This document shows positions 21,970-43,880 of a stretch of 64,000 nt of DNA, one piece after another (within the stretch, counting starts at the first letter, position 1; each line of letters starts with the position of its first letter). Origin of the DNA: an uncultured Caulobacter sp. (GTDB lineage: Bacteria > Pseudomonadota > Alphaproteobacteria > Caulobacterales > Caulobacteraceae). Both the position numbers and the translations under genes were made by a program. The notes under the pieces are model-generated. The model had not been told where the DNA came from, ran no database searches, and was given only the letters and a program-made list of their open reading frames with translations. The stretch is from positions 1 through 64,000 of the forward strand of contig CAJYMH010000030.1 of assembly GCA_913776195.1 (NCBI GenBank), written 5' to 3'.

Positions 21970-24264
<2,295 letters not shown>

Positions 24265-24409
24265 CTATGATCAGGCATGAGCCGCTCTATAGGGCGCATG
24301 AACTGGGTAACAGGCAGCGGGGGTGGGGCGGCCTTGGGTAGAGCCCAGGCGGCGAATCTGGGCATTTTCTCAACCGAGTCCTGTCGAAGTCCGAACAAGG
24401 GAGGGAAAA

Positions 24410-27400
24410 GTGGTCTCGCCGATCATCAAGTATTCCCTCGACCAGTTTCGGATGCTTTCGGCGACCGAGGCGCAGACCCTGACCGCCGCGGACATCAAGC
24501 TGCTGTCGGCCTCGCAGCTTGGCGCCATGAGCGCCACTGCGATCGGCGAACTGTCCCAAACCCAGGTCAGCGCCTTGTCGGCCGTCCAGGTCAAGGGCCT
24601 GAAAGCCGCCCAGATTCCGCTCATCGACGACGCGGTCTCGTTCTCGGCCGCCCAGATGAAGGTGTTCGCCGCCGAGCAGATGAGCGGCTTCTCGGTGACC
24701 CAGATCGCCGGGTTCGACACCGTCGAGCTTGGCGCGCTCTCGGGCCAGCAATTGTCTGGTCTGACGGATGCGGCGCTGAACGCCCTGGTGGAGACCCAGC
24801 TGGACGCCCTGGCCGCCCGTCAGCTGGCGGGGCTGACCGCGCAGGCTCTTTCGCGCCTCGACGCCACCCGCGTGGGCTTCCTGGACGTCAGCCAGATCCG
24901 CGGCCTCAGCGTCGCCCAGGTGCGCGGCCTGAGCGCCGCCGATTTTTCCGAGTTCAGCACCACCCAGGTCGCGGGCATGACCGCCGCCCAGCTGGGCGCC
25001 TTGTCGGCGACAAATCTGCAGAGCCTGTCGATCACCCAGATGCGCGGCCTTGACGCGACGCAGGTGAGGGGACTTTCGGCCGCGCAGATCAAGGCCCTGG
25101 GCGCCGCCGATTTCGCCGAACTGGGCGAGACCCAGATCGCGGCCCTCGGCGCAGCTCAACTGGCTGCCGTCAGCGGCGCGCAGCTGGCCGCCCTCGACCA
25201 GACCCAGGTGCGCGCCCTGGCCTCGACCCAGATGCGCAGCCTTTCGCCGGCGCAGCTGAAAGACCTGACGACGCCGCAAGTTCTCAGGTTCGGGGCCGAG
25301 CAGATCGGCGGTCTGTCGGCCAGCCAACTGGCGGTGCTCGCTCCGGCGACCTTGAGCGCCATGGACGCCACCCAGATCCGGGCGCTTCCCGCCAGCCAGA
25401 TGCAGGGGCTGACGCCAGCGGCCTTCGCCGGCCTGAGCCAGACCCAGATCGCCTTGCTGGACGTCTCCCAAATCCGCGGACTATCGGCCAATCAGATCCG
25501 CGCGCTCGACGCGGGCGCTTTTTCGCAGCTCAGCGCCACCCAGGTGTCGGCGCTCACGGGCGCACAGATCGGCGCGCTTTCGACCACCAACTTCCTTGGG
25601 CTCGACGCCACCCAGATCAGCGCCCTCGACGCCGCCCAGGTGCGCGGCATCGCCGCCAGCCAGCTTTCAGCCCTCACCGCCGGCGACGTGGCCGAGTTCG
25701 GCGCCGCGCAGATCGCCGCCCTGGCCAGCACGCAGGTCGGATCGCTCAGCGCCGCCAACCTTTCGGCGCTGGATCAGACCCAGGTCCGGGCGCTCGGCGC
25801 CGCGCAGGTGCGCGGCATCGGCGCTGCGCAGATGGCGGGTCTGAGCACGACCGACCTTAGCGAGTTTCAGGCGACCCAGATCCAGGCGCTGTCGGCGGCC
25901 CAACTGGCCGCGCTCGGCGGTGGGGCGGCGTCGGCGCTCGATCAGACCTGGGTCGGCGCCCTGTCGTCCCGGCAGGTGGCCGCCCTTTCGACGACGCTCC
26001 TGGATCAGTTCAGCGTCACCCAGTTCGGCCAGCTGAGCGTCGAGCAGGTCAAGGGCCTGACGGCGGCGCAGATCCGGTCGCTCGACGTGACCGCCTTCAG
26101 CGCCCTGGGCGATCCGCAGATCGCCGCCTTGTCCGCCCTCCAGTTCGGCTCGGTCTCGGCGACCAACCTCAACAGCCTCGACGCCGCGCAGATGCAGGCG
26201 TTCGATCCGACGCGGCTGAAGGCGCTGACCGCCGCGCAGCTTGCCGGCCTTTCGGCGACGCGTATCGCCGATCTGGATCCGGCGCAGGTCGCGATGCTCG
26301 CGCCCTCGCAGATCAAAAGCCTTTCGCCCACGGGGTTCGCCGCTCTGGACGCCGCCCAGGTGGCGGTCCTGAGCGCGGCCCAGCTCAAGTCCGTAACCCC
26401 AGCGCAGCTGTCGGCCCTCAACGCCACCGGTGTCGGCCAGTTCAGCGCCGCCCAACTGCGCCTGCTGACCGGCGCGCAGTTGGGCGGGCTCTCCTCCCTG
26501 GCCCTGCTGGGGGAGGTCGCGCTGGATAGTCTTACGGCGGCGCAGCTTGGAGGACTGAAGCCCGCCCAGTTCAGCTCCCTGACCGCGACGCAGGTTGCGT
26601 CCCTCGAAGCCAGCCAGATTCGAGGTCTGACCGTTCAGCAGATCAGGGCGCTCAGCGCCGCCGACCTTTCGGAGTTCGCTTCGACCCAACTGGCGGCGCT
26701 CAACGCCGTCCAGATCGCCGCCCTGGGCGCCGACCAGCTGAAGGGTCTGGCCGACACCCAGCTTTCGGCTCTGACCTCAACCCAGGTGCGCGCGCTGAGC
26801 GTGAATGAGCTGAAGGCCCTGACCGCCGCTGATCTGGCGCGGTTCGGGCCGGAGCAGCTTGGCGGTCTGACAACGGCTCAAATGGCGGCGCTGGCGGCCG
26901 ATCGGCTCTCGAACCTGAGCCAGACGCAAATGGCGGGGCTCAGTGGCGGCCAACTGGCGGGTCTGAGCGTTCAGGCCCTGGCCGGGTTGAGCGGCGCCCA
27001 GATCAGCGGCCTCTCCACCACCCAGGTTCGCGGCCTGAGCGCCGCGCAACTGCGCGCTCTTGGACCTGCTGACTTCGCCGAGTTCACCCCCGCCCAGGTC
27101 GCGGCCTTCAGCGGCTCCCAGATCGGCGCCTTGTCCACGACCAATTTCGCCAGCCTGAGCGCCGCCCAGATCGCCGCGCTCGACGCGGCCCAGGCCCGGG
27201 GGCTCGCCGCCAGCCAGCTGGCCCAGCTGGCGCCCGATCGCCTCGCGGCCCTCGCCGAGACCCAGCTGCGCGCGCTCACCCAAAGCCAGCTGCGGGGGCT
27301 GGCCGACGGCGCCCTTGGCCTGCTGGCCGCAACCCAGATCGCCTTGCTGGAGACGACGCAGGTCCAGGGCTTCAGCGTCTCGCAGATGCGCGCCCTGGCG

Positions 27401-27670
27401 GTCACCGACCTTGGCCGTTTTTCGTCCACCCAGGTGGCGGCCTTGACCCGGTTCCAGATCGGCGCCCTTTCGGCCGGGCTGCTCGACGCTCTGGCGACGA
27501 CACAGATGTCGTTGTTCGAGCCTGGCCAGATCGCCGGCTTCTCGCCGGCGCAGCTGGCGCGCTTGACCGCTGCTCACATCGCCGCTCTCAGCGACGAACA
27601 GGTGGCGGCCATGAGCGCCATACAGATCCGGTCGCTGACCGATGCGCAGCGCCAGGCGCTGGTCCAATAG
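24410..27670 (+). CDS. Giant octapeptide-repeat protein of unknown function
   Basis: 1086 residues made almost entirely of about 130 tandem octapeptides after a short start (VVSPIIKYSLDQFRML). Consensus is (S/T/D/G)-(A)-(T/A)-Q-(I/V/L)-x-(A/G/S)-L, for example SATQVSAL, TAAQLGAL, DAAQVRGL. Only two 14-residue interruptions are visible (near 73-86, IPLIDD, and near 700, LLGEVALD). Every seventh octad in several stretches is replaced by an acidic variant (SAADFSEF, GAADFAEL, TAGDVAEF, STTDLSEF, TAADLARF) and the third after it often by SATNLQSL/STTNFASL, giving a 56-residue super-period. I see one Trp and no Cys, no signal peptide and no C-terminal anchor. Start GTG chosen for GGGAGGG at the right distance. 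Similar octapeptide stretches occur in some large bacterial surface proteins; the role here is unknown. Confidence 0.8.
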   Translation: MVSPIIKYSLDQFRMLSATEAQTLTAADIKLLSASQLGAMSATAIGELSQTQVSALSAVQVKGLKAAQIPLIDDAVSFSAAQMKVFAAEQMSGFSVTQIAGFDTVELGALSGQQLSGLTDAALNALVETQLDALAARQLAGLTAQALSRLDATRVGFLDVSQIRGLSVAQVRGLSAADFSEFSTTQVAGMTAAQLGALSATNLQSLSITQMRGLDATQVRGLSAAQIKALGAADFAELGETQIAALGAAQLAAVSGAQLAALDQTQVRALASTQMRSLSPAQLKDLTTPQVLRFGAEQIGGLSASQLAVLAPATLSAMDATQIRALPASQMQGLTPAAFAGLSQTQIALLDVSQIRGLSANQIRALDAGAFSQLSATQVSALTGAQIGALSTTNFLGLDATQISALDAAQVRGIAASQLSALTAGDVAEFGAAQIAALASTQVGSLSAANLSALDQTQVRALGAAQVRGIGAAQMAGLSTTDLSEFQATQIQALSAAQLAALGGGAASALDQTWVGALSSRQVAALSTTLLDQFSVTQFGQLSVEQVKGLTAAQIRSLDVTAFSALGDPQIAALSALQFGSVSATNLNSLDAAQMQAFDPTRLKALTAAQLAGLSATRIADLDPAQVAMLAPSQIKSLSPTGFAALDAAQVAVLSAAQLKSVTPAQLSALNATGVGQFSAAQLRLLTGAQLGGLSSLALLGEVALDSLTAAQLGGLKPAQFSSLTATQVASLEASQIRGLTVQQIRALSAADLSEFASTQLAALNAVQIAALGADQLKGLADTQLSALTSTQVRALSVNELKALTAADLARFGPEQLGGLTTAQMAALAADRLSNLSQTQMAGLSGGQLAGLSVQALAGLSGAQISGLSTTQVRGLSAAQLRALGPADFAEFTPAQVAAFSGSQIGALSTTNFASLSAAQIAALDAAQARGLAASQLAQLAPDRLAALAETQLRALTQSQLRGLADGALGLLAATQIALLETTQVQGFSVSQMRALAVTDLGRFSSTQVAALTRFQIGALSAGLLDALATTQMSLFEPGQIAGFSPAQLARLTAAHIAALSDEQVAAMSAIQIRSLTDAQRQALVQ

Positions 27671-27734: not shown

Positions 27735-30700
27735 CTAGAAGGACTTGCGCACGGCCACCTCGATCGTGCGGCCCAGCGGATTGCCGGTCCACGGATCGTA
27801 GCCGAACTCCTCCTGGGCCGGCGGCGGGTCACGGTCGAACATGTTGGCCACCGTCGCCATCAGCACGGTGCTGTCGTTCAGCTGGAGGCGATAGGTGAGG
27901 TCGGCGGTGATCCAGTCCTCGCCTTCCTCGCCGTACTGCACGCCGGGCCGCTCGTCGCGCACCGCCGAGACGAGGTTGACGCCCAGGCGCAGGTTATGAC
28001 GGTCGACCGCGTAGTTGACGCCAAGATTGGCGCGCCACTTGGGGGCCGCCTGGGCGAAGGTCGCGAAGTTCAGCGTGCCAAGCCGGTCGTCCCCCGTCGA
28101 CACCACCACGCCGTCCAGGGTCGTCGAGCCGGTTCGAAGCTCGGTGACGCGGGTGGCGTTCAGGCTGATGTCCAGGTCGCCGCCGGCCAGGGGCAGCCCA
28201 TAGCTGGCCTGAATGTCGAAGCCCTTGGTCGTCTGGCCGGGGCCGTTTCCGTAGCGGGTTGAAACCGCCGAGAAAGTCCCGACGCCGTTCATGCCCACCA
28301 CGCAGCCATTGTTGAAGGTTATGCGCGCCAGGAGCGGTTGGGCGGCGGTGTCGCAGGTCGTGATCACGCCGCCGGGGCCGTTGAAGACGAGGCTTGCGAT
28401 CTGGTTCGGATCGGCGACCTGACCGATCTGATCCTTGGTGCGGATGTCGAAATAATCGACGATCAGGCGCAAGCTATGATCTTCCGCCAGGCCCCGGCTT
28501 TGCCAGATGGCGCCCAGGTTCGAGGTCTTGGCTGTCTCCGGCTTCAGGTCGGTGTCGGTGATGAACTGGGCCGCCAGCCAGTTGCTGGCCGCGGCCGTGA
28601 AGGTGCGCGCCGCCACGGTGATGGCCCCCGGCGTCACGCCCAGAGGCGGGGTCTGGTAGTTGGTGCCGTACGAGCCGCGCAAGGTGAGGGGGCCCCAGAC
28701 GTTCCACTTGCCGGACACCTTGTAGACGGTGGCGCCCAGGTCGTTGGAGAAGCGCTCGCGGCGGGCGGCCAGCTGGATGTCGACATTGGACAGCAGCGGC
28801 ACCTGCAGTTCGCCGAATATGGAGTACTGGCTTTGCTCGGCCTGGGTCGGCAGCTGCGGCGCGAACAGTACGAATGGTCCGGGCGCGTCGGGCGTGCAGC
28901 CGCGGAAGTTGGGGCTGGTGGTGGGAAGCGGGTTGGCCTCCAGGTTCGGCGAGCCGGGGCCGTTGGCGCTCGTCGTGCCGTCGGGCCACTCGCACCGCAC
29001 CGTGCCGTTATAGTGCGCGCCTTGCGGGTTCACCCGGTTTTCGAACTCGCGATACTGCGCCCCCACGGCCCAGCCGACCTCGCCGCCCGGCAGCCGAAGG
29101 CCCGAGCGGCCGTCGAACACCAGGTCGGCGGTGAAGTTGCTGCTCAAGGTCTCCGTGGCGCGCGGGTCGAACATCCACAAGGTCAGGTCGCGCGGGTTCT
29201 CGCGGCCCGCCACATAGTTTGGATTGGCCAGCCCCAGAGCCGGCTGGCCCTGGAAGGCGGTGGAGAACGGGTTCCACCACTGGCAGCCGTTGCGGCCGGC
29301 GGCCGCCGGATTTTGCGTCCCAAAGCGGGTCGGATCGAGGTCGACCGCCTGGCAGTTGGGACCGCCAAAGCCGTTGAGGGCCTCCTGGACCCGGTAGCCG
29401 ATGGTGTCGGGGTGGGTGTTGAAGTTGTAGGCGTCGTTATAGGTCAGGGCCAGATCGTAGCCCACGGCGCGGGCGAAGGGCGCAAGATCGCCCAGGTCGC
29501 CGCGAACGCCGCCGGAGATGCGCCACACCTTGTTGTCGATACGGTCGGCCACGCCAAAGCCGTCGCCGCCGGAGTAGTACGGGTTCCCGCCGTGGCCGAG
29601 GAGCCGGTAGGTGGTGGGCGTGAAGCCCTGGACGCCGGCGAGGCCGTTGGCGGCCGCGAAGGCGGCGGCGTGAGGGTTGGCGATCGGCACGTAGAACTGG
29701 TTCACCGACCCAGTCGCCATCGCCGGACCGCGCACGACCGGTTGCGCCGGCGAGCCCATCACCTGAGGCAAGGTCACGCGCCCGTAAGACGCGTCGGCGT
29801 GGAACTGCATGCGCTCGCCAAGGTCGGCCTTGATCTGGCCGTAGAGGCGATAGGTGTCCTGCTCCTCCACCAGCCGGTAGTAGGAGATGTAGTTGTAGGC
29901 GCAGGTGAAGGCGTTGTCGTAACGACCGCCCACCGCCGCGCAGCTTGCGGGGGTGAAGTCCGAGACGAGGCCGCCCACGGGGGCGCCGAACTCGGCGTCG
30001 GCGGAGATGCCGGGGATCGCCGGAAGCGCCCCTCGCGGCTGCCAGCCCGTCAGGTTGGTCAAGGTCGACCACGGCGCCGGATTGTAGCCCGCCTTCGGCG
30101 TCAGCGAGTCTCTTGTGAAGCCGCGCTCCAGGGTGTTGAGGCGCGAGCGATGCTCGTACTCGGCCGAGACCAGCAGATTGACCCGCTCCTCGCCGAAGCC
30201 GGCCATGACGCCCACCGAATAGTCGCCCTTGGAGCCGTCGATGTACTTGTATTGGCCTTGCGCCTCGACGCCGGTGAAGCGCTCGCGGGTGATGAAGTTG
30301 ACCACCCCGCCGATGGCGTCGGCGCCGTAGATCACCGCCGCGCCGTCTTTAAGGATTTCGGTGCGGGCCAGGGCGATCGACGGGACGTTGGCGGTGTTCT
30401 GGTTCATCCGCCGGCCGTTCAGCAGGACCAGCGTCTTGTCCGAACCCAGGCCGCGAAGATTGTAGTTCACCGACCCCACCAGGGTCGGCCCGCCAAAATA
30501 ATAGGACTCGCCGGTCGTCGGTCCGGAGATGGTCAGGCTCTTGGCGAACTCCAGCGCCGTGGGTGCGCCCTGCCTCTCCAGCTGCTCCTGTGAATAGACC
30601 TCCACCGGTAGCGCCGCGTCGAGCGCGGAGCCTCGGATGTTGGAGCCGGTGACGACGATTTCCTCTACCTGCGTGCCGGCGTCCGGCGCCTGGCGCGCCC

Positions 30701-30773
30701 AGACCTGAGCCGGCAGGCCGGCGATCCCAAGCAGCAGCGCGACGCCCGAGGCGCCCATTAGCCCAATCCTCAT
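27735..30773 (-). CDS. TonB-dependent receptor
   Basis: 1012-residue outer-membrane receptor. Signal peptide ends near QVWA-RQ; TonB-box-like EEIVVTGSNIRG; plug motifs VNYNLRGLGSDKTLVLLNGRRM and EILKDGAAVIYGADAIGGVVNF; barrel to the C-terminal Phe in IEVAVRKSF. Cys-containing extracellular loops are seen (for example GCQWWNPFSTAFQG), typical of the Caulobacter-type receptors with NPFS motif. GGGGAGG precedes the ATG. Divergent from a TetR gene with an inverted-repeat operator in between, so probable regulation by that TetR. Substrate likely that of the adjoining esterase/beta-oxidation genes. Confidence 0.94.
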   Translation of the reverse strand: MRIGLMGASGVALLLGIAGLPAQVWARQAPDAGTQVEEIVVTGSNIRGSALDAALPVEVYSQEQLERQGAPTALEFAKSLTISGPTTGESYYFGGPTLVGSVNYNLRGLGSDKTLVLLNGRRMNQNTANVPSIALARTEILKDGAAVIYGADAIGGVVNFITRERFTGVEAQGQYKYIDGSKGDYSVGVMAGFGEERVNLLVSAEYEHRSRLNTLERGFTRDSLTPKAGYNPAPWSTLTNLTGWQPRGALPAIPGISADAEFGAPVGGLVSDFTPASCAAVGGRYDNAFTCAYNYISYYRLVEEQDTYRLYGQIKADLGERMQFHADASYGRVTLPQVMGSPAQPVVRGPAMATGSVNQFYVPIANPHAAAFAAANGLAGVQGFTPTTYRLLGHGGNPYYSGGDGFGVADRIDNKVWRISGGVRGDLGDLAPFARAVGYDLALTYNDAYNFNTHPDTIGYRVQEALNGFGGPNCQAVDLDPTRFGTQNPAAAGRNGCQWWNPFSTAFQGQPALGLANPNYVAGRENPRDLTLWMFDPRATETLSSNFTADLVFDGRSGLRLPGGEVGWAVGAQYREFENRVNPQGAHYNGTVRCEWPDGTTSANGPGSPNLEANPLPTTSPNFRGCTPDAPGPFVLFAPQLPTQAEQSQYSIFGELQVPLLSNVDIQLAARRERFSNDLGATVYKVSGKWNVWGPLTLRGSYGTNYQTPPLGVTPGAITVAARTFTAAASNWLAAQFITDTDLKPETAKTSNLGAIWQSRGLAEDHSLRLIVDYFDIRTKDQIGQVADPNQIASLVFNGPGGVITTCDTAAQPLLARITFNNGCVVGMNGVGTFSAVSTRYGNGPGQTTKGFDIQASYGLPLAGGDLDISLNATRVTELRTGSTTLDGVVVSTGDDRLGTLNFATFAQAAPKWRANLGVNYAVDRHNLRLGVNLVSAVRDERPGVQYGEEGEDWITADLTYRLQLNDSTVLMATVANMFDRDPPPAQEEFGYDPWTGNPLGRTIEVAVRKSF

Positions 30774-30800
30774 GATGTCCTCCCCGTTGAACGAGTCTCA

Positions 30801-30828
30801 AACGCTCATTCTCACAAGAGTGAATGTT
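30801..30828. promoter_or_regulatory. Operator copy 1 (TCAYTCT-N4-AGAGTGA type)
   Basis: 28-nt imperfect palindrome: left arm AACGCTCATTCT, spacer CACA, right arm AGAGTGAATGTT, 9 of 12 arm positions matching. Lies between the TonB receptor (start 30773) and the TetR gene (start 30945). The same right arm recurs at 33078 and 39451. Confidence 0.75.
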
Positions 30829-30829
30829 G

Positions 30830-30860
30830 AACGCTCGCCGCCTCACCGTCAATGAGCGTT
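30830..30860. promoter_or_regulatory. Second inverted repeat in the same promoter region
   Basis: AACGCTC at 30830-30836 and GAGCGTT at 30854-30860; the latter belongs to AATGAGCGTT, the exact reverse complement of AACGCTCATT at 30801-30810. It may be a second regulator site. Confidence 0.45.
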
Positions 30861-30944
30861 GTTCTTACCGGGGCTCCCGCATGCTCGGATGGTTGACAGG
30901 AGCGCCCAGCGATCCGACTAGGCACGGACTTGCGACGCGGGAGG

Positions 30945-31643
30945 ATGGTTTTGGCGGGAGCGACGGCGAAGCGGACCCAGACGAGGGCCGGCAAGGCGCG
31001 TGGGCCCACCAAGGCCGAACAGCGCGCCCAGAGCCTCGAGCAGATTTTGGACGCGGCCGAATACCTGTTCTCGCAGAACGGCCTCTACGGCGTGACCCTG
31101 CGCGATGTGGCCAAGCGGGTCGGCATCCACACGACGCTGCTGAACTACTACTTCAAGGACAAGGTCAACCTGTTCGAGGCGGTCTTCGCCAGACGAGCGG
31201 GGGTGACGTCGGGGCGGCGCATGGTGGCGCTGGAGGAGTATGAGAAGGCGGCGGGCGACAAGCCGACTGTGGAGGGGGCGCTGCACGCCTTTCTCGACAC
31301 CGACCTGGACCTCTACCACGAGGGCGGCGAGCACTGGATGAACTACGCCGCCTTTTGCGCCCGCGTGAGCAACACCCCCGAAGGCGCCGCTCTGATGGAC
31401 GAGCACTTCGATCCCGTGGTGCTGAAACTCGTCAGCATCCTCAAGCGCGCCTTGCCGCACTACGCCGACGAAGAGATCTTCTGGGGCTACCACTTCGTCA
31501 GCGGCGCGCTGATGAACACCTTGGCCCGGACCGGCCGCATCGACCGTCTCTCGGGCGGCATCTGCCACTCCGACGACTTCCCCGCCGTGAAGAAACGCAT
31601 CGCCAGGTTCATGGCCGCAGGCTTCATCGCCCTGAAGGGATGA
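30945..31643 (+). CDS. TetR-family regulator (paralogue 1)
   Basis: 232 residues. HTH about 15-65 with RAQSLEQILDAAEYLFSQNG, VTLRDVAKRVGIHTTLLNYYFKDK; the C-terminal ligand domain contains FLDTDLDLYHEGGEHWMNYAAF and IFWGYHFVSGALMNTLARTGRID. Very similar to the TetR gene at 38724. The start is unclear: GGGAGG touches ATG 30945, so TTG 30951 at normal spacing is an alternative. It would repress the divergent receptor and probably its own gene through the operator at 30801. Confidence 0.88.
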   Translation: MVLAGATAKRTQTRAGKARGPTKAEQRAQSLEQILDAAEYLFSQNGLYGVTLRDVAKRVGIHTTLLNYYFKDKVNLFEAVFARRAGVTSGRRMVALEEYEKAAGDKPTVEGALHAFLDTDLDLYHEGGEHWMNYAAFCARVSNTPEGAALMDEHFDPVVLKLVSILKRALPHYADEEIFWGYHFVSGALMNTLARTGRIDRLSGGICHSDDFPAVKKRIARFMAAGFIALKG

Positions 31644-31659
31644 AGCCTGCGGCGCCGCC

Positions 31660-32973
31660 TCAGGCGGCGCGCTCCGCCCGCGCGAAAATCCGGGCCAGCC
31701 AAAGAAACAGCGCGATCGCCAGAACGTAGAACGGCACGAGGGTGTAGAGCGCCATCTGCAGCGAATTGTGCGGATGCGTGGCGCGGAAGAAGTCGCTGGC
31801 GGCGCCCACATAGGTGGGGCCAAGTCCCAGGCCGATGAAGTTCATGATCAGCAACAGCAACGCCCCGGACATGACGCGCTGCTCGGGCCGCACCTGCTCC
31901 TGGACCAGCGCCACCGAGGACGACAGGTAAAAGTAGTTGAGGAAGGTCGGCCCGGCCAGCAGCACCAGGGCCAGCGGCCAGGTCGGCGCCCAGACGAACC
32001 CGATATAGAACGGGATCGCCAAAAGCAGCGAGATCGCCGGCACCAGCGCGTAAGGGACCTTGGAGCGGCGCGTGTAGCGGTCGATCACCCGTCCGGAGGC
32101 GAAGATGCCGGCGCTCATGCCGATCCCCACCACCAGGGCGTACCAGACGGCCACCTGGCCCAGCGTCATGCCCTTCTCGCGCATGAGGAAAAGGGTGGTG
32201 AAGTTGCCAAGGCCATAGGTCACGAACTGGGTGGCCCCGCTGCCCAGCGCCGCCAGCACCAGCGGCGGACGCGAAAAGAACATCCCAAGCGTGGCCCAAA
32301 AGCCGGCTTTCGCCGGCGCGGCCCCCGCCTCCTGGCCGTCCAGCGCCCCCCGGCGCGGTTCGGGCACGATGAAGGGGAGAACCACGGCCGCCGCCACGCC
32401 GACCACGCCCAGGACGATGAAGGCGTAGCGCCAGTTGAAGGCCGCGGCGATCGCGGCCCCAAAGGCGATGCCCAGGGCCGCGCCCACCGGCGGACCAAGG
32501 TTGTAGAGACCCAAGGCCGTGCCCCGGCGCCCTGGCGGGAAATAGTCGGAGATGATGGCGTAGGAGGGGGGCACGCCGCCCGCTTCGCCAAAGCCCACCG
32601 TCATGCGCGCGACGGCGAACTGGGCGTAGGTGCGCGACAAGCCGCAGGCCACCGTCGCCGCGCTCCAGATGCCGCAGGCCAGGGCCAGCACCGCGACGCG
32701 ATTGGTCCGGTCGGCGAGCCATCCCACCGGGATGGCGATGAAGCAGTAAAAGAGGGCGAAGTAGAATCCGCCGATCAGGCCAAGCTGGCTGTCGCTGACG
32801 TGCAAGGTGTCCTGGATGGGCTTGGCCAGGATGGACATCAGCTGCCGGTCCAGGAAGTTCAGCACGTAGACGAACCAGAGCATCGCCAGGACGACCCAGG
32901 CGCGACGGCCCACGGGCCCCGGCGCGACGTTCGCCGGTTGGAGCGGAGCGACGGAGGGTGGGGCGGCGGTCAT
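31660..32973 (-). CDS. MFS transporter, spinster-like
   Basis: 437 residues, 12 predicted membrane helices. The first helix region VLNFLDRQLMSILAKPIQDTL and the loop WLADRTNRV with later GxRxGxAxGLYN match the spinster (Spns) group of MFS, which in Caulobacterales lies beside TonB receptors and carries lipid-like or aromatic organic solutes. Start at 32973 is a choice: the open frame extends to 33054, but that would overlap the operator region more closely. Divergent from the receptor at 33185 with the second operator between them. Confidence 0.88.
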   Translation of the reverse strand: MTAAPPSVAPLQPANVAPGPVGRRAWVVLAMLWFVYVLNFLDRQLMSILAKPIQDTLHVSDSQLGLIGGFYFALFYCFIAIPVGWLADRTNRVAVLALACGIWSAATVACGLSRTYAQFAVARMTVGFGEAGGVPPSYAIISDYFPPGRRGTALGLYNLGPPVGAALGIAFGAAIAAAFNWRYAFIVLGVVGVAAAVVLPFIVPEPRRGALDGQEAGAAPAKAGFWATLGMFFSRPPLVLAALGSGATQFVTYGLGNFTTLFLMREKGMTLGQVAVWYALVVGIGMSAGIFASGRVIDRYTRRSKVPYALVPAISLLLAIPFYIGFVWAPTWPLALVLLAGPTFLNYFYLSSSVALVQEQVRPEQRVMSGALLLLIMNFIGLGLGPTYVGAASDFFRATHPHNSLQMALYTLVPFYVLAIALFLWLARIFARAERAA

Positions 32974-33077
32974 CGATCGACCGTCCCCGCCGGTGGTGTG
33001 GTGTTCAAGGCGCTTCTCCCAAATGCCGTTCTTGACCCGGCTTTGGGCGAGCATGCGCCGATCCTCGCCCCGCCGTC

Positions 33078-33105
33078 AACATTCACACGCGCGAGAGTGA
33101 GTGTT
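33078..33105. promoter_or_regulatory. Operator copy 2
   Basis: 28-nt palindrome with arms AACATTCACACG and AGAGTGAGTGTT around CGCG; allowing the centre, 22 of 28 positions pair. Lies 79 nt before the receptor start at 33185 and 105 nt before the MFS start at 32973. Confidence 0.78.
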
Positions 33106-33184
33106 GACAGGCCGGGTCCTCGCCGTCACGCTTTGGGCATGCCGTCGACGACGAACGATCGACGCGTCCGGGGAGGACAACACC

Positions 33185-35452
33185 ATGAAGGCTGGTCTTT
33201 TCGCGTCGGCGTGCGTCGCCGCCGTCGTCGTTTCATCGCCGGTCCTGGCCCAGTCGGGCTCGGCGGCCGGGCAAGAGGACGCGCGTCGCGACGCCGCGTC
33301 GGTTGGAGAAGTCGTGGTCACCGCCACCCGTCGTCCCGAACGCCTGCAGGACGTCCCTTTGAGCATCACGGCTTTCTCGCAGGAGGACCTGACCGCCAAG
33401 GGGATCGTCGGCTACGAAGGCCTGGCCAGGGAGACGCCGGGGGTGGTGCTGAACAAGCCGACCGCCAACTTCAACAATTTCACCGCGCGCGGCGTGGCCA
33501 CCAACGGCTACGGAGCCAACCTGCAAAGCACGGTGGCCATCTATATCGACGAGCTGCCGATCTCCACCATCGGCAACACCACCGTCATCGACCCCAACCT
33601 CTTCGACGTCGAGCGCGTGGAGTTCCTGCGCGGCCCGCAAGGCACGCTCTTCGGTTCCGGTTCGCTCTCGGGGGCCTTGCGGATCCTGACCAAGAGCCCG
33701 GATCTGTCCAAATACGACGCCTCGGCGCTGGTCGACCTTGGCCTGACGGGCTCGGATTCGGTGCGGCAGCGGTACAACGGCATGATCAACCTGCCGCTGG
33801 TCGACGACAAGCTGGCCTTGCGCGTGGTCGGCTTCTATCGGCACGAGGAAGGCTATGTCGACAACCTCGGCACCGGCGTCCACAACGCCAACACCCTGGT
33901 CGACTGGGGCGGCCGCGCCATACTGCTGTGGGAGCCCAACGACCGGCTGTCGGTGAAGCTGCTCGCCTCCTACGAGGACAGCAATCCCAAGGACTCATCG
34001 CTGATCGATCCACGCCTTGGCCGCGAGCGCAGGCGCTCGGACCGGCCCGACCTCTTCGTGGGCAAGCTTGAGACCTACAACGCAACCATCGAGCACCAGT
34101 TCGACGGCGCGCGACTGACCAGCTCCACCACCTATTCGCGCTTCGACCAGAAGTTCTTCGTCGACCTGGCCGGCACCTTTGGCGGCGCCATCGCCTTTGG
34201 CCTGGACGCCTGGGCCTACCAGAACACCTTCGTCGAGGAGGCCAGGCTCGCCTCGGACCCCGGGGGGCGCTTCGACTGGGTGGTCGGCGGCTTCTATCTC
34301 GATCGACGGCTGGACGTGGATTACTTCTATCGCTCCTCGCCGGCCTTCCTCGCCGCCCGGCGCATCACCGGGCTTCCCGACGAGTATTACCAGCGCCAGT
34401 TCAACTACACCGACTCCCACGAACTGGCCGGCTTCGGCGAGGTGACCTGGCGGCTGGACGAGCGCTTCTGGCTGACGGGGGGCATGCGCTACGGGCGGGT
34501 CGACGCCCAGGGCTTCGTGCAGGGCGGCTATAACAGCAATTACCTGACCGCGGCCCTGACCCCTGGGTTCTCGGGGCCGCTGACCATCACTCAGCTTTCG
34601 CCGGTCGCGGGCCTCAAGGCGCAAGGCAGCAAGCCCTCCTTCAAGATCAGCGCCTCGTTCAGGCCCCGGCCGTCGGTGACCACCTACGCCACCGTGTCGA
34701 CCGGGTTTCGCACGCCGATCATCAACGCCTTCGGCGGCCGTCCCAGCCTTGTTAATCCCAACGACCTCGTCATTCCGGCGGGCGCCGACTCCGACGACCT
34801 GACGAACTACGAGATCGGCCTGAAAGGTCGCTGGTTCGACGGCAGGTTGGCGGCCAACCTGGCGGCCTACTGGATCGACTGGAGCAACATTCAGGTCCAG
34901 GCCAACCGCGTCTCCGACTCGGTGCAGTTCGCCACCAATATCGGCGCGGCGCGCAGCCGCGGGCTGGAGTTCGAGATCCTGGCCTTTCCCAGGAGCGGCC
35001 TGACCGTCGGCTTCAACGGTTCGTTCAACAACGCCAAGGTCACCGAACTATCGCCCGCCGAGGCGGCGATCTCGGGGGCCGTGCCTGGGGCGCGTCTGGC
35101 CGCGCCGCGCTTCCAGGGCTCGGCCTATGTGGATTACGGCTTTGACCTGTCGCCCCGGGCGAGGGCGAACCTGTCGCTGGTTCTGCAGCATGTCGGCTCC
35201 TATCCGGGGATGTTCCCGCGCGTGCCGGGGCAGCCCAATGTGGTGGCGCCGACCTACGGGTTCACCGACGCCTACGAGAACGTCAACGCCACCTTCGCGG
35301 TGAACTTCGACAAGTTCACCGTGGGCGCCTATGTCGAAAATCTCTTCGACGACCACTCCTTGACCTACGTCCATCCCGAAGCCTTCCTCGCCAACCGCTT
35401 TGGCACCATGCGACCGCGCACCGCCGGGGTGCGCGTCGGCTACGAGTTCTAG
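33185..35452 (+). CDS. TonB-dependent receptor
   Basis: 755-residue outer-membrane receptor. Signal peptide cut near VLAQ-SG; VVVTATRRPERLQDVPLSITAF is the FecA/pesticin-like plug start common in sphingomonad and caulobacter receptors; plug motifs GLARETPGVV and RVEFLRGPQGTLFGSGSLSGAL; barrel ends RVGYEF. Followed after 3 nt by the secreted esterase gene, with the acyl-CoA ligase next, so the three are one transcript. This receptor probably brings in the substrate or a product of esterase action. Confidence 0.93.
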   Translation: MKAGLFASACVAAVVVSSPVLAQSGSAAGQEDARRDAASVGEVVVTATRRPERLQDVPLSITAFSQEDLTAKGIVGYEGLARETPGVVLNKPTANFNNFTARGVATNGYGANLQSTVAIYIDELPISTIGNTTVIDPNLFDVERVEFLRGPQGTLFGSGSLSGALRILTKSPDLSKYDASALVDLGLTGSDSVRQRYNGMINLPLVDDKLALRVVGFYRHEEGYVDNLGTGVHNANTLVDWGGRAILLWEPNDRLSVKLLASYEDSNPKDSSLIDPRLGRERRRSDRPDLFVGKLETYNATIEHQFDGARLTSSTTYSRFDQKFFVDLAGTFGGAIAFGLDAWAYQNTFVEEARLASDPGGRFDWVVGGFYLDRRLDVDYFYRSSPAFLAARRITGLPDEYYQRQFNYTDSHELAGFGEVTWRLDERFWLTGGMRYGRVDAQGFVQGGYNSNYLTAALTPGFSGPLTITQLSPVAGLKAQGSKPSFKISASFRPRPSVTTYATVSTGFRTPIINAFGGRPSLVNPNDLVIPAGADSDDLTNYEIGLKGRWFDGRLAANLAAYWIDWSNIQVQANRVSDSVQFATNIGAARSRGLEFEILAFPRSGLTVGFNGSFNNAKVTELSPAEAAISGAVPGARLAAPRFQGSAYVDYGFDLSPRARANLSLVLQHVGSYPGMFPRVPGQPNVVAPTYGFTDAYENVNATFAVNFDKFTVGAYVENLFDDHSLTYVHPEAFLANRFGTMRPRTAGVRVGYEF

Positions 35453-35455
35453 GCG

Positions 35456-37120
35456 ATGCGGGCCGTGCTCAACGCTCTTGGCGTCGGACTTGCGGCGACC
35501 GCCTGCGCCTTGGCCGCCGTCACCGCGGCGGTGGCCAAGGCTCCGGTCGTCGCGGCTCCCGTCGTCCAGGCGCCGGCCGGGACCATGCGCGGGGTCCAGC
35601 AGGAGGGCTTGCGGGTCTTCAAAGGGGTGCCTTACGCAGCCGCGCCGGTCGGCCCCCTGCGCTGGAGGCCGCCCGTCGCAGCGCCCGCCTGGAGCGGCGT
35701 GCTCGAGGCCTCCGACTTTGGCCCCGCCTGCGTCCAGCCCAAGGCGAACGCGGCGAGCATCTACGCCTCGCCGTTGAAGGCGATGAGCGAGGACTGCCTG
35801 TCGCTGAACATCTGGAGCCCAAAGGAAGCCAAGGGCGCGCCCGTGCTCGTCTGGATCCATGGCGGGTCCCTGGTCGCCGGCTCCAGCAGCGAGACGATGT
35901 ACGATGGGGCGGCGCTTGCGCGCCGGGGCCTCGTGGTCGTCTCGATCAACTATCGCCTTGGCGTGCTTGGCTATCTGGCTCATCCGCAGCTGAGCGCCGA
36001 ATCTGCCGAGCACGTCTCAGGCAACTACGGCCTGCTCGACCAGATCGCCGCCCTGCGCTGGGTGCGCGACAACATCGCCGCCTTCGGAGGCGACCCTGCC
36101 AGGGTGACGATCGCCGGCGAATCGGCCGGCGGCCTCAGCGTCATCTATCTGATGGCCTCGCCAAGGGCCCGGGGCCTGTTCGACAAGGCGATCGCCCAAA
36201 GCGCCTACATGATCTCCACGCCAACCCTGCGCGAGGCCCGCCATGGCCACGTCGCGGCCGAGGCGATGGGCGCGACGACCGCCGCCAGCCTCGGGGCCGC
36301 CGACGTGGCGGCCTTGCGCGCCATGGATGCGCAGGCCTTGACCGCCCAGGCGCTGGCGGCGGGCTTCCAGAGCTTCGGCGCCGTGGACGGCAAGATCCTT
36401 CCGCAGCAGATGGTCGATACATTCGACCGGGGCGAACAGGCCCGCGTGCCGCTGCTGGCGGGTTTCAACAGCGGCGAAATCCGCTCCTTGCGTATGCTCG
36501 CCCCGCCGCCGCCCGCCGACGCCGCCGCCTACGAGTCTCAGATCCGTCCGCGCTATGGCGATCTGGCCGACGCGTTCTTGCGCCTCTATCCGTCCAGCGA
36601 CCTGGCCGAGAGCGTGCTGGCCGCCCCCCGCGACGCCCTCTACGGCTGGACCGCCCAGCGGATGGTCGAAAAGCAAACCGCCCTGGGAGCGGCCGGCTAT
36701 CTCTATCTCTTTGACCATGGCTACCCCGCGGCCGAGGACGCGGGCCTTCGCGCCTTCCATGCCGCCGAGATTCCTTACGTCTTCGGCACCGCGTCCCTGA
36801 CGCCGCCCGCCTGGCCAAAGCGCCCAGACACGCCGCAGGAGGCCGCGCTCACCGCGGCCATGGGCGATTACTGGGCCGCCTTCGCCAAGGACGGCGCGCC
36901 GTCGGCGCCAGGCCAGCCCGCCTGGCCCGCCTATGGCGAGGCGCGGGCCTACATGGCCTTCGCCGAGACGCCCCGCGCCCAGGCCAAGCTTTGGCCGGGC
37001 ATGTACGAACTGAACGAGGCTGTGATGTGCCGACGCCGCGCCCAGGGCGACCTTGCCTGGAACTGGAACGTCGGGGTCGTCTCGCCGCCGCTTCCCCCTG
37101 CAGTTAGTGAGTGCCGATGA
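35456..37120 (+). CDS. Secreted carboxylesterase, type B
   Basis: 554 residues. N-terminal hydrophobic signal (about 1-27), then the alpha/beta-hydrolase type-B fold: FKGVPYAAAPVGPLRWRPP, disulfide pair C92 and C114 (SEDCLSLNIW), oxyanion HGGS 135-138, nucleophile S223 in GESAGG and catalytic His in RAFHAAEIPYVFG. Hydrolyses carboxylic esters in the periplasm. Overlaps the next gene by ATGA, so acid release and CoA activation are coupled. Confidence 0.92.
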   Translation: MRAVLNALGVGLAATACALAAVTAAVAKAPVVAAPVVQAPAGTMRGVQQEGLRVFKGVPYAAAPVGPLRWRPPVAAPAWSGVLEASDFGPACVQPKANAASIYASPLKAMSEDCLSLNIWSPKEAKGAPVLVWIHGGSLVAGSSSETMYDGAALARRGLVVVSINYRLGVLGYLAHPQLSAESAEHVSGNYGLLDQIAALRWVRDNIAAFGGDPARVTIAGESAGGLSVIYLMASPRARGLFDKAIAQSAYMISTPTLREARHGHVAAEAMGATTAASLGAADVAALRAMDAQALTAQALAAGFQSFGAVDGKILPQQMVDTFDRGEQARVPLLAGFNSGEIRSLRMLAPPPPADAAAYESQIRPRYGDLADAFLRLYPSSDLAESVLAAPRDALYGWTAQRMVEKQTALGAAGYLYLFDHGYPAAEDAGLRAFHAAEIPYVFGTASLTPPAWPKRPDTPQEAALTAAMGDYWAAFAKDGAPSAPGQPAWPAYGEARAYMAFAETPRAQAKLWPGMYELNEAVMCRRRAQGDLAWNWNVGVVSPPLPPAVSECR

Positions 37121-38676
37121 TCGACGGCGATATGCAGGCTTTCGGCCTGACGCTCGACAAGTTCCTGGAGCATGCCGCCAAATGGCGCCCACGCGCCCAG
37201 GTCGTCACCGCGCGCGACGGAACGCCTGACCGCATAGGCTACGCCGACCTGAAAATCCGCGCTGGGCGCGTGTCGGTCGTGCTGGCGGGTCTTGGCGTGA
37301 GGCCCGCGGACCGGGTGGCCACCCTGGCCTGGAACAGCCAGGACCACGTGGCCGTCTGGTACGCGGTCATGGGCATGGGGGCTGTCTGCCACACGCTCAA
37401 CCCGCGCCTGACCGCCTCGCAGCTGACGGACATGATCGTCCAGTCGCAAGCGCGCGTCCTCGTCGCCTCGGCCGATCTGGCGCCGCTCGCCCGCCAGGTG
37501 CTCGACGGCGTCGGCGCCGCAGGCCGGCTGCTGGTCATCGACGGAGAGGCCAAGGAGGGCGAGGCGCTGGAGCCGATGATCGCCGCCGCACGGGGCGATG
37601 CGCCCTGGGGCGCCTTCGATGAGACCGCGCCATGCGGCCTTTGCTTCACGTCGGGCACTACCGGAGCGCCCAAGGGCGTCACCTACACCCATCGCTCCAG
37701 CTACCTGCACACCTTGCGGATCCTCCAGGCGGACGTCATGGCCTTCACCGGCGCCGACGCCATCCTGGCCGTCGTGCCCATGTTCCACGCCAATGCCTGG
37801 GGGCTGCCCTTCGCCGCTCCCGCGGTGGGCGCCAAGCTGGTTCTGCCGGGCCGCCACACCGACGGCGCCAGCTTGGCGCGCCTCATCGCCGCCGAAGGCG
37901 TGACGGTCGCCGTGGGCGTACCGACGGTCTGGTTGGGTCTTGTGGAGCATGTGGAGGCCACCGGCGAGCGCCTGCCGAGCTTGCGGCGGATCATCGTCGG
38001 GGGGGCGCCCATGGCGCCGGCGCTGATGGAGCGTATCCAAGATGGGCTCGGGGTTCGGGTCCAGACCAGCTGGGGCATGACCGAACTTTCGCCCTCCGGG
38101 GTGGTGGCGCCCCTTTGCGACCCGGCCGACGCGGCCCTGGCCGGGCGGCCGGCGGTCGGCGTGGACCTTCTGCTGACCGACGCCGACGGCGCCGCCCTGC
38201 CGCAGCAGCGCGAGGTCGAGGGCCATCTGCGCGTACGCGGCGCCGCGGTGATCGAGCGTTATTTCGGCCAGGAGGCGCCCGCCGTCGACGAGGATGGCTG
38301 GTTTCCTACGGGGGATCTTGCGCGCATAGACGCCGATGGCGCCTTGATGATCACCGGACGCGCCAAGGACCTGATCAAGTCAGGCGGCGAATGGATCAAC
38401 CCCGCCGAGATCGAGGCCGTGGTCGGCGCCCTGCCGCAGGTGTCGCTGGCCGCGGTGATCGGCCGGATCGATCCCAAGTGGGGCGAACGTCCCATCCTGC
38501 TGGTGGAGGTGAAGGACGGGGTCGATGTCAGCGACGAGGCTCTGCTGGCGCCCTTGCGGGGAAAGGTGGCCTCCTGGTGGATACCCGACGCCGTCCTTCG
38601 CCTGCCGCGCATGCCCCTGGCGGCGACCGGCAAGATCGACAAGATTCAGCTGAGATCGCAATTCGGCGGCGGCTAG
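37117..38676 (+). CDS. Acyl-CoA synthetase (AMP-forming), AlkK-like
   Basis: 519 residues. ATP/AMP motif TSGTTGAPKGV near 185, YxSWGMTELSP equivalent SWGMTELSPSG, GWFPTGDLARID and the C-terminal catalytic Lys in ATGKIDK. Sequence start MQAFGLTLDKFLEHAAKW and the overall length place it with medium/long-chain fatty-acyl-CoA synthetases of the AlkK type. Activates the acid freed by the esterase. ATG 37117 overlaps the esterase TGA; GTG 37111 is another possible start. Confidence 0.9.
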   Translation: MIDGDMQAFGLTLDKFLEHAAKWRPRAQVVTARDGTPDRIGYADLKIRAGRVSVVLAGLGVRPADRVATLAWNSQDHVAVWYAVMGMGAVCHTLNPRLTASQLTDMIVQSQARVLVASADLAPLARQVLDGVGAAGRLLVIDGEAKEGEALEPMIAAARGDAPWGAFDETAPCGLCFTSGTTGAPKGVTYTHRSSYLHTLRILQADVMAFTGADAILAVVPMFHANAWGLPFAAPAVGAKLVLPGRHTDGASLARLIAAEGVTVAVGVPTVWLGLVEHVEATGERLPSLRRIIVGGAPMAPALMERIQDGLGVRVQTSWGMTELSPSGVVAPLCDPADAALAGRPAVGVDLLLTDADGAALPQQREVEGHLRVRGAAVIERYFGQEAPAVDEDGWFPTGDLARIDADGALMITGRAKDLIKSGGEWINPAEIEAVVGALPQVSLAAVIGRIDPKWGERPILLVEVKDGVDVSDEALLAPLRGKVASWWIPDAVLRLPRMPLAATGKIDKIQLRSQFGGG

Positions 38677-38723
38677 CAAGCCCGCGCCGCCGACCAAAGC
38701 CACCGCAACGGACACCCGCCGCA

Positions 38724-39416
38724 ATGCCAAAGGACGCCGAACCCCGCCGACGCTCGACCAAGGCCGAGCAGCGCGCCGAGATGATGGAGCAGATTCTCGA
38801 CGCGGCCGAGTACCTGTTCTCCAAGCATGGCCTCTATGGCGTGACCCTTAAGGACGTGGCCACGCGGGTGGGCGTGCACCACACCCTTCTCAACTACTAT
38901 TTCGATGACAAGAAGACGCTCTTCGACGCCGTCTTCGCCCGTCGCGCGGTCGTAACCAGCGAGCGGCGCATGCGGGCGCTCGACGATTACGATCGGGCGA
39001 GCGGCGGCAAGCCCACCGTCGAGGGCGCCCTGCGCGCCTTCCTCGATACCGATCTAGACCTCTATATCGAGGGCGGGGAGGGGTGGAAAAACTACGCCGC
39101 CCTGGGCGCCCAGGTCGCCAACGTGCCCGAATGGGGCGCCGCGCTCATGGACGAGCACTTCGATCCGGTTGTCCTGCGGCTGATCGGCCTGCTGCGCAAA
39201 GCCCTGCCCGATTGCGACGAAGCCGACATCTTCTGGGGCTACCACTTCGTCACCGGGGCCCTGATGCTGACCCTCGCGCGCACCGGCCGCATAGACAAGC
39301 TTTCGGGCGGGGTCTGCAGGTCCGACGACTTCGTGGCGGTCAAGGAACGCATGGCCAGCTTCATGGCGGCCGGCTTCCTGTCGGTCTGCGACAGACGCTC
39401 CTGCGGCCAGGCCTAG
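38724..39416 (+). CDS. TetR-family regulator (paralogue 2)
   Basis: 230 residues, close paralogue of the gene at 30945: both have KAEQRA..EQILDAAEYLFS, TLLNYYF.DK, KPTVEGAL.AFLDTDLDLY and the GYHFV.GAL..TLARTGRID blocks. HTH about 18-60. It follows the ligase gene by 47 nt and probably belongs to that operon. A near relation in recognition helix suggests both regulators read the same operator, so they may respond to different ligands or form a heterodimer. Confidence 0.9.
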   Translation: MPKDAEPRRRSTKAEQRAEMMEQILDAAEYLFSKHGLYGVTLKDVATRVGVHHTLLNYYFDDKKTLFDAVFARRAVVTSERRMRALDDYDRASGGKPTVEGALRAFLDTDLDLYIEGGEGWKNYAALGAQVANVPEWGAALMDEHFDPVVLRLIGLLRKALPDCDEADIFWGYHFVTGALMLTLARTGRIDKLSGGVCRSDDFVAVKERMASFMAAGFLSVCDRRSCGQA

Positions 39417-39450
39417 GAGACGAGCGCGCACGGCGAAGAACGACGGTCAA

Positions 39451-39478
39451 GATCTTCACTAACGCAAGAGTGATTATT
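39451..39478. promoter_or_regulatory. Operator copy 3 (weakest)
   Basis: Arms GATCTTCACTAA and AGAGTGATTATT around CGCA; 7 of 12 arm positions pair, with the TCACT/AGTGA core kept at the spacing seen in copies 1 and 2. 50 nt before the SDR start at 39529. Confidence 0.6.
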
Positions 39479-39528
39479 ATGCCCGTGCGCGCGATTGCCC
39501 GCGCCGGGACACAAAGGAGAAGGCGCTG

Positions 39529-40419
39529 ATGATGCTGGATGGACGGGTAGCGATCGTGACCGGCGCGGGCGGGGGCCTGGGCCGCGCCCATGCCCTCTAC
39601 CTCGCCGGTCAGGGGGCGAAGGTGGTGGTGAACGACCTTGGCGCGGAGGCCGCCGAGCGCGTGGCCGCCGAGATCGTGGCGACCGGCGGCCAGGCCGTCG
39701 GCATGGGCGCCTCGGTCACGGACGAGGCGGCCGTGAACGCGATGGTCGACCGTGTCATGGAACGCTGGGGCCGGGTCGATATCCTCGTCAGCAACGCGGG
39801 GATCTTGCGCGACAAGAGCTTCGCCAAGATGAGCCTGGACGACTTTCGTCTAGTGGTCGATGTCCACCTGATGGGCGCGGCGATCTGCGCCAAGGCGGTC
39901 TGGCCCATCATGCGCGAGCAGGGTTATGGCCGCATCGTCATGACCACCTCGTCCTCCGGGCTCTATGGCAATTTCGGGCAGGCCAATTACGGCGCCGCCA
40001 AGATGGCCCTCGTCGGTCTCATGCAGACCCTGGCGCTGGAAGGCGAAAGGTATGGGGTGCGGGTCAATTGCCTGGCCCCGACGGCGGCGACCGGCATGAC
40101 CGAGGGCGTGCTCTCGCAAGAAAGCCTGGAGCGCCTCAAGCCCGCCCTGGTCAGCCCCGGCCTCCTGGCCCTGGTGAGCGACGAGGCGCCGACGCGGACG
40201 GTGCTTTGCGCCGGCGCCGGCCACTTCGCGGTCGCCAACGTCACCCTGACGCAGGGGCGCTATGTCGGCGACGGGCCTGACGCGGGCGAAGAGATCATCC
40301 GTCGCTGGGACGCCGTGGCCGACCGCTCCGGCGAGATCGTTCCCGCCTACGGCTTCACCCAGGCCGAGCGCGAGCTGGCCAGCGCCGGGCTTGTCGCGCC
40401 GGTCGTGGCGAGGTCGTGA
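39529..40419 (+). CDS. 3-hydroxyacyl-CoA dehydrogenase, MFE-2-like SDR
   Basis: 296 residues. NAD site [13 protein letters not shown] (11-23), VVVNDLG at the end of strand 2, NAG at 89-91, catalytic Y154 and K158 in NYGAAK. The sequence resembles the dehydrogenase half of peroxisomal multifunctional enzyme type 2 (HSD17B4) more than FabG. Predicted to oxidise a 3-hydroxyacyl-CoA in the cytosol, upstream of the thiolase. About 60 extra C-terminal residues without the hydratase domain of MFE-2. Preceded by AAGGAGAAGG; the stop overlaps the thiolase ATG. Confidence 0.88.
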
Positions 40420-41591
40420 TGCGCGACGCCGTCATCGTCTCCACCGCCCGCACGCCGATCGGCCGCGCCTATCGCGGAGCCTTCAACGACACCCCGTCGC
40501 CGACCCTGGCCGCCCACGCCCTGGCCGCCGCCGTCGAACGGGCCGGGCTGGAGCCCGACGCGATCGACGATTGCCTCCTGGGCTGCTCGCTGCCCCAGGG
40601 CCATCAGCACACCATAGGACGCATGGCCGCCCTTCGGGCGGGATTTGCGGTCACCGTGCCGGGCATGACCCTCGACCGTCAGTGCTCGTCCGGCCTGATG
40701 ACCATCGCCACCGCCGCCAAGCAGATCATCGTCGATCGCATGGACGTCATCGTGGCGGGCGGCGTGGAATCCATCTCCATGGTCCAGACGCCGCAGCTGC
40801 GGGCGGACCAGGACCCCGGCCTGGTCGCCATGCACTCCGACGCCTACATGCCGATGCTCGACACGGCCGAGACCGTGGCGGCCCGCTACGGGATCAGCCG
40901 CGAGGCCTGCGACCTCTACGCCCTGGCCTCGCAGTCGCGCGCCCATGCCGCCCAGCAGGCGGGCCGCTTCGACGGCGAGATCGTGCCGGTCGCCGCGGTC
41001 ATGAAGACGACCGACAAGGAAACCGGCGCCGTCTCGCACCGGGAGGTGCTGCTGGAGCGCGACGAAGGCGTGCGCCCCGAAACCACGCTGGAAGGCCTGA
41101 GCGCCCTGAAAGCTGTCCGTCCAGGCGGCGTGGTCACCGCCGGCAACGCCAGCCAGCTGTCGGACGGCGCCTGCGCCTGCGTGGTCATGGAAGCCAGGCA
41201 GGCGCAAAAGCGCGGCCTTGCGCCGCTTGGCCGCTATGTGGGCATGGCTGTCGCGGGCACGCGGCCCGACGAGATGGGCATCGGGCCTGTCTTCGCCATT
41301 CCGCGCCTTCTGGAGCGGTTCGGCCTGAAGACGGACGACATCGGGCTTTGGGAGCTGAACGAGGCGTTCGCCTGTCAGGTTCTCTACTGCCGCGACCGGC
41401 TCGGCATTCCCGACGAGCGGCTGAACGTGAACGGCGGCGCCATCGCCATGGGCCATCCCTACGGCATGTCCGGCGCGCGCCTGGTGGGGCACGCCCTGCT
41501 GGAAGGCAAACGGCGCGGCGCGCGCCACGTGGTCGTGACCATGTGCGTCGGCGGCGGCATGGGGGCCGCGGGACTGTTCGAGGTGCTTTGA
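40419..41591 (+). CDS. Acetyl-CoA acyltransferase (thiolase)
   Basis: 390 residues, thiolase I/II fold. Nucleophile C89 in DRQCSSGLM, His in [19 protein letters not shown] and the second catalytic Cys in [12 protein letters not shown]. Degradative thiolases of this form cleave 3-ketoacyl-CoA to acetyl-CoA and a shortened acyl-CoA. Overlaps the SDR stop (TGATG), so dehydrogenation and thiolysis are translated together. No acyl-CoA dehydrogenase or enoyl-CoA hydratase is present here. Confidence 0.93.
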
Positions 41592-41612
41592 CAGGGCCGA
41601 CGGGAGGTGAAG

Positions 41613-42806: not shown

Positions 42807-42839
42807 CCTAGGACCGGCCAGCCCTCGTCGACCCGGGCA

Positions 42840-43868: not shown

Positions 43869-43880
43869 GCGTCGCCGGCC

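Follow-up and report, generated by a model that had tools for sequence, protein, structure and literature searches.

Several described entries lie closest to the protein considered here, the 1,086-residue octapeptide-repeat product of an open reading frame at 24410–27670 (forward strand) in a 64,000-nucleotide stretch of DNA from an uncultured Caulobacter sp. (GenBank contig CAJYMH010000030.1), hereafter the window. Pfam family PF20080 (ALTTAQ repeat) describes the same octad repeat and matches the whole protein (E = 2e-90; 296.6 bits against a cut-off of 26.4), with 36 stretches at E ≤ 1; of seven matching Pfam families, it is the sole one with individually passing stretches. Its model of 38 positions is a whole number neither of octads nor of the turns proposed below, and the searches made brought up neither a function nor a super-period for it. 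By sequence, the closest PDB entry is 9zem, ‘HeliScrew4’ (120 residues, phmmer E = 5.9e-13), which is made of octads of the same type and, from its name and idealized sequence, appears to be a designed protein; it is absent among the fold matches listed for our models. The mesothelins (7ued and 8cx3; relatives stereocilin and otoancorin) are the solved folds nearest to the model of the window protein described below, at a low TM-score. Mesothelin is a right-handed solenoid whose 24 short helices form nine layers (PMC10035497). It has about 2.7 helices per layer and two disulfides, whereas about 3.4 per turn are predicted for the window protein, which lacks cysteine. The first-pass annotation, made from the DNA letters alone, had proposed the gene as an undescribed structural system. 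For the repeat this label fails in view of the PF20080 match, yet no paper on the ALTTAQ repeat was found in the searchable literature, nor was one on HeliScrew. The repeat itself is already catalogued, and the window protein is one of its shorter, well-conserved members. As far as the searches reached, the apparent novelty lies in a register encoded in the sequence and in an association with glycosyltransferases of family GT41.

A dynamic-programming register search parsed the protein into 132 octads with two slips, in agreement with the roughly 130 octads of the first-pass annotation; the octad reads (S/T)-A-T-Q-(I/V/L)-x-(A/G)-L. The annotation had also proposed a 56-residue super-period. 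Similarity between octads seven apart is indeed raised in residues 7–694 (z 5.75, reached by 0 of 2,000 octad shuffles) and in the 47 octads past residue 708 (z 2.76, reached by 9 of 2,000), and the DNA autocorrelation has its maximum at lag 168, as that proposal predicted, with lag 576 (192 residues) ranking seventh. Other lags are raised in the first stretch (3, 4, 10 and 13, z 2.3–3.5; slightly 1 and 6, z 2.2 and 2.1), a pattern close to that of a non-integer period of about 3.4 octads. Judged from the sequence, the true period is non-integer, about 27.3 residues (3.42 octads), so that 56 residues would approximate two turns (54.7) and 192 residues seven. The 56-residue period is thus significant, but as a two-turn approximation of a shorter one.

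Within the window protein, this period also shows in the octads with aspartate at position 4 (D4 octads). One begins at residue 25, within the N-terminal cap, and was excluded from the phase test. The other eight, all on the forward strand, are SAADFSEF (residue 175; 24932..24955; phase 0.40 turn), GAADFAEL (residue 231; 25100..25123; 0.44), TAGDVAEF (residue 423; 25676..25699; 0.46), STTDLSEF (residue 479; 25844..25867; 0.51), SAADLSEF (residue 749; 26654..26677; 0.38), TAADLARF (residue 805; 26822..26845; 0.42), GPADFAEF (residue 885; 27062..27085; 0.35) and AVTDLGRF (residue 997; 27398..27421; 0.44). All eight thus fall between phases 0.35 and 0.51 of a 27.36-residue turn, one sixth of the turn (R 0.956), a clustering that about 1 in 100,000 random octad choices matches (P ~ 1e-5) and that spans a 14-residue linker (residues 695–708; 26492..26533, forward strand) separating the two octad arrays. 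A free period scan of 18–60 residues on the D4 octads is best at 27.32 residues, and the 35 octads of the protein without glutamine at position 4 give R 0.686. The claim that every seventh octad is acidic is only partly right: past the N-terminal cap, the D4 octads of the first stretch are spaced by 7, 24 and 7 octads, those of the second by 7, 10 and 14. A further claim was that the third octad after such a special octad is often an asparagine octad: all five octads with asparagine at position 4 sit three octads past a special octad, but for only three of the eight D4 octads outside the cap does one stand at that place.

The same period recurs across the family. We grouped the same-genus proteins into types A, B and C from their length and neighbours, after these had been seen; the window protein is type A. 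Two of the 22 group frames, with fewer than 100 octads, were left out, and the remaining 20 proteins are not independent because many are orthologous to each other. For types A (n = 3) and B (n = 12), mean z has its maxima at lags 7, 10, 14, 17 and 24. Type C (n = 5) shares those at 7, 10 and 14 but has a mean z of only 1.0 at lag 17. When octads are scored simply for the absence of glutamine at position 4, the strongest spectral peak lies at 3.30–3.50 octads in 20/20 proteins, each above its 95% shuffle level, although the peak of L043 (9.7) is below its highest shuffle (11.0). Alignment on the D4 octads gives a consensus common to all three types, with lysine or arginine frequent at position 6 of the two preceding octads and, in the D4 octad itself, glutamate at position 7 and often phenylalanine at position 8; three octads later, position 4 is frequently asparagine or alanine in types B and C, and glutamine (38%) or asparagine (24%) in type A.

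Relatives in other genera have different strongest lags: 17 in Rhizobium, Pseudomonas asturiensis and Rhodovastum, 34 in Cereibacter, 10 in Shinella and 24 in Niveispirillum. The combined lag spectrum of 13 chosen proteins (seven from the group of 20 and six of the nine others, of which the Spiroplasma protein described below, a second P. asturiensis frame and a second Shinella protein were excluded) peaks at 3.40 octads with a height of 0.488, against 0.166 for the highest of 150 shuffled sets; the six other genera alone also peak at 3.40 (0.481 against 0.328, the highest of 150 shuffled sets). Taken singly, 9 of the 13 have their best period at 3.36–3.44. Position-4 spectra of the distant proteins show no main peak at 3.4; Niveispirillum has its second peak near there (17.4), and Cereibacter a weak one (6.4, below shuffle level).

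Structure prediction points to a solenoid of very short helices. In the whole-protein model, five helical and three loop residues alternate over long stretches. A model of residues 151–414, folded from an alignment to which three further segments of this protein were added as rows (shallower than apparent, because two of the three rows overlap), is confident (predicted local distance difference test score, pLDDT, 92.7; predicted template-modelling score, pTM, 0.81) and places 33 helices of 4–6 residues in 33 octads. Neither model contains a strand. The first-pass annotation had offered a regular solenoid or a long amphipathic fibre, and of these the confident model supports the solenoid and not the fibre. 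In a Foldseek search, mesothelins lead the PDB matches (top E = 3.1e-5, probability 1.0), with weak matches also to designed armadillo, Puf and importin solenoids. By sequence, the mesothelin family is absent from the seven Pfam matches and no mesothelin chain occurs among the 45 PDB sequences at E ≤ 1. The helix lengths of the confident model show a weak periodicity at 3.40 (P = 0.033), and a superhelical twist matching the sequence period is a prediction of our analysis.

We favour, with moderate confidence, the reading that the window protein is a fixed-length superhelical rod of the ALTTAQ-repeat family. Each octad would form one single-turn helix and a short turn, with the leucine and the I/V/L position of successive octads building a continuous core. 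A rotation of about 105 degrees per octad would give 3.42 octads (27.3 residues) per superhelical turn, such that octads in which D, N or A replaces glutamine would recur on one face of the screw; the lysine or arginine in the two octads before an acidic octad suggests salt bridges between neighbours or turns. With about 38 turns the protein would be a stiff rod, roughly 35–40 nm long if its layers lie 9–10 Å apart.

The repeat is also associated with genes for GT41 glycosyltransferases. Among 20 repeat-gene neighbourhoods, 12, those of type B, have a TPR/GT41 gene 14–209 bases downstream on the same strand (PF13844, E ~ 1e-81, in the two that were scanned; identified by phmmer in the others). 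Type B comprises 11 loci with repeat frames of more than 1,900 residues (for L057, two consecutive frames summed) and L045, in which a contig end cuts the frame. Of the remaining neighbourhoods, L046 ends inside the repeat gene and seven, types A and C, have frames of about 1,086–1,404 residues without GT41. Across the genus, GT41 is found in 31/31 ALTTAQ-positive and 15/44 negative genomes (Fisher P = 6.5e-10, uncorrected for shared ancestry). On plasmids, a GT41 place lies within 10 kb in at least 26 of 59 ALTTAQ records, and in 26 of 27 records listed in both searches, the GT41 search covering the best 60 of 100 records and many ALTTAQ records being near-identical Cereibacter plasmids. Serine plus threonine content per octad is highest in type B (2.27), followed by C (1.85) and A (1.45). 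Type I secretion genes are annotated near relatives in Cereibacter and Pseudomonas asturiensis. A described parallel is the HMW1 adhesin, a large exported protein modified by an HMW1C-type GT41 enzyme (PMC3012730), as we propose for the type B paralogues. HMW1 uses two-partner secretion and is N-glycosylated, whereas no such exporter was identified here. The larger, more Ser/Thr-rich paralogues beside GT41 are probably O-glycosylated surface or secreted rods, and the window protein would be a shorter form without its own transferase; it too may be exported and glycosylated.

Several observations weigh against the favoured reading. The single-sequence model of the whole protein is poor (pLDDT 52.2, pTM 0.30), with some long helices in low-confidence parts; helix lengths in the 151–414 model are not significantly periodic when all periods are considered (P = 0.60); and the TM-score to mesothelin is only about 0.3. 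Conservation per octad among the orthologues lacks a 3.4-octad period (P = 0.47). Four of the 13 proteins have best single periods of 7.76, 3.62, 8.55 and 5.47, and among the same-genus proteins L061 exceeds z 2 only at lag 23 and L052 only at lags 4, 7 and 25; L058 is a further exception, with no lag 7 and with lags 4, 10, 14, 20, 24 and 28. The presence of GT41 in 12/12 type B loci is partly built in, because the type was defined after lengths and neighbours had been seen. The window holds no GT41, its repeat gene has none adjacent, and the only GT41 found in the 84%-complete assembly adjoins its type B gene. No GT41 is annotated in the two Shinella neighbourhoods read, in which other glycosyltransferases are annotated, and no secretion gene occurs among the ten window neighbours scanned.

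The period could alternatively be a mere trace of a copied ancestral octad block, without structural meaning, a reading that we consider improbable. Some relatives, such as those in Niveispirillum (z 38.3 at lag 24) and Rhizobium (z 30.0 at lag 17), do have strong blocks. Of nine proteins examined, L044 (0.573 against 0.525, standard deviation, sd, 0.024) and L047 (0.724 against 0.694, sd 0.015) show a somewhat raised codon identity at lag 24, by about 2 sd. Because octad shuffling does not model random block duplication, we added a test of how the strongest lags fit a common period. Block lengths vary by genus, yet the strongest lags of nine groups, compared with random lags of 5–41, fit a period of 3.42 octads (P = 0.0004, ties kept), and those of the six other genera alone fit 3.40 (P = 0.012). 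One lag per group was used, with the window protein for type A, L053/L048 for B and L044 for C; the alternatives L043, L058 and L052 would give 7, 10 and 7. Within the window protein, the D4 phase is kept across the linker and codon identity at lag 7 is unraised (0.538 against a mean over lags of 0.503, sd 0.027, about 1.3 sd). The three other type A orthologues, at 78, 67 and 56% identity, are 1,086, 1,086 and 1,085 residues long (for L043 the start matching that of the window was taken, the longest frame there having 1,127 residues), and their ratios of non-synonymous to synonymous substitution rates (dN/dS) are about 0.19, 0.27 and 0.40. Unraised codon identity together with stable orthologue length indicates that the array is mostly old and length-stable, and the two-step duplication that the annotation had inferred is not borne out as a recent event.

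A cytoplasmic scaffold or binding platform resembling ARM, HEAT or Puf proteins, in place of an exported rod, is in our view rather unlikely. It would be consistent with the absence of any signal peptide seen, no predictor having been used, with the lack of a secretion gene in the scanned neighbours and with the weak matches to armadillo, Puf and importin solenoids; moreover, cytoplasmic proteins are among the substrates of GT41 enzymes. The type I secretion genes near relatives argue for export, as do, as labels only, the record names ‘heme utilization protein’, ‘large exoprotein involved in heme utilization or adhesion’ and ‘ICE nucleation protein’. Disfavoured and highly improbable is a leucine-rich-repeat (LRR) or β-solenoid protein, to which weak Pfam matches (LRR_EndoS, 4.6e-14; LRR_8, 0.0018) and LRR chains in the PDB sequence search might point. 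In our judgement, these and the other weak Pfam matches arise because the composition is leucine-rich and periodic. LRR proteins have a β-strand in each repeat, whereas both of our models lack strands, and no LRR occurs among the best 50 fold matches. LRR, β-solenoid and coiled-coil readings were set aside because of the absent strands and the 4–6-residue helices of the confident model.

The gene begins at a GTG codon (24410), its position matched by ATG in three orthologues, with a likely ribosome-binding site, ggaggg, upstream (24400..24405, forward strand). Besides the linker, the second departure from the octad register is a 6-residue insert (residues 73–78; 24626..24643, forward strand) after the first eight parsed octads, in the shared N-terminal cap. 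A slip of 5 or 6 residues within residues 70–114 occurs in 19 of 22 parsed frames; two of the others lack the N-terminus and L058 has a 7-residue slip at 111. The protein contains 119 Gln, 1 Trp and 0 Cys, the last as the annotation had stated, and no long hydrophobic stretch was seen at its N-terminus, where no signal-peptide or anchor predictor was used. Type A orthologues occur in four of 75 genomes of the genus, the window's included, and ALTTAQ matches in 31 of 75. The window protein as query matched 13 of 37 same-genus genomes, counting its own, but none of 24 genomes from elsewhere in the order; among 14 control genomes it matched only Caulobacter vibrioides, where GT41 matches too. A genome-contig scan, which detects close relatives only, found a single locus, in Rhodoblastus (33% identity). 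As for a phage origin, there were 0 matches among 50,697 phage records, 12 stretches of viral contigs fitted a pattern and none was confirmed, and a viral fold library gave four matches under E 0.001 with TM-scores ≤ 0.24. The Spiroplasma plasmid psAtri5, from an endosymbiont of Drosophila atripex, encodes a 1,150-residue protein (L067:4707–8159) with 25% identity to the window protein and octads such as TPKQIQAL behind a non-repeat N-terminus.

The divergent neighbour of the repeat gene encodes a protein with a Pfam peroxidase match (21970..24195, reverse strand), which we take to be of KatG type. It adjoins the type A orthologue in two of the three other genomes and was not found beside it in G083; because of this, it is no obligate partner. 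About 16 kb (27735–43880), including two TonB-dependent receptors, a TetR regulator, an MFS transporter, a carboxylesterase and an AMP-binding enzyme, part the repeat gene from a 3D-domain gene in the window; the two adjoin in G009 and G013, and about 3 kb lie between them in G083. Of the five type C loci, three carry a DUF2239 gene 3′ of the repeat gene (L044:7037–7600, L049:4150–4716 and L060:4874–5443), as does L073. Ten of the 12 type B loci keep a further gene 3′ of GT41 (L047:496–2349 and homologues); Pfam gave no match at E 0.001 for the L047 copy and only TPR and weak other matches for the L045 copy. The type B repeat of genome G030 is broken into two successive frames (L057:5026–11855), with GT41 next as usual, and, judging from neighbours, the type B gene of the window's own genome is apparently split across the ends of contigs C29 and C11 (L046:8934–10320 and L045:1–3785).

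We tentatively suggest that ALTTAQ proteins in general are widespread fixed-length screws whose pitch is written in their sequence, that blocks near whole turns (7, 10, 14, 17, 24, 27, 31 and 34 octads) are favoured, and that many may be coated with sugar by GT41 before export, which would make them a new bacterial surface rod or stalk. A non-integer period that can be read off the sequence predicts a twist open to measurement, and the association with GT41 is biochemically testable, both families having matches in the tractable Caulobacter vibrioides. If this is right, protein designers would have a use for short-helix screws that carry their register in the sequence, and the register would explain which duplications such repeat proteins tolerate.

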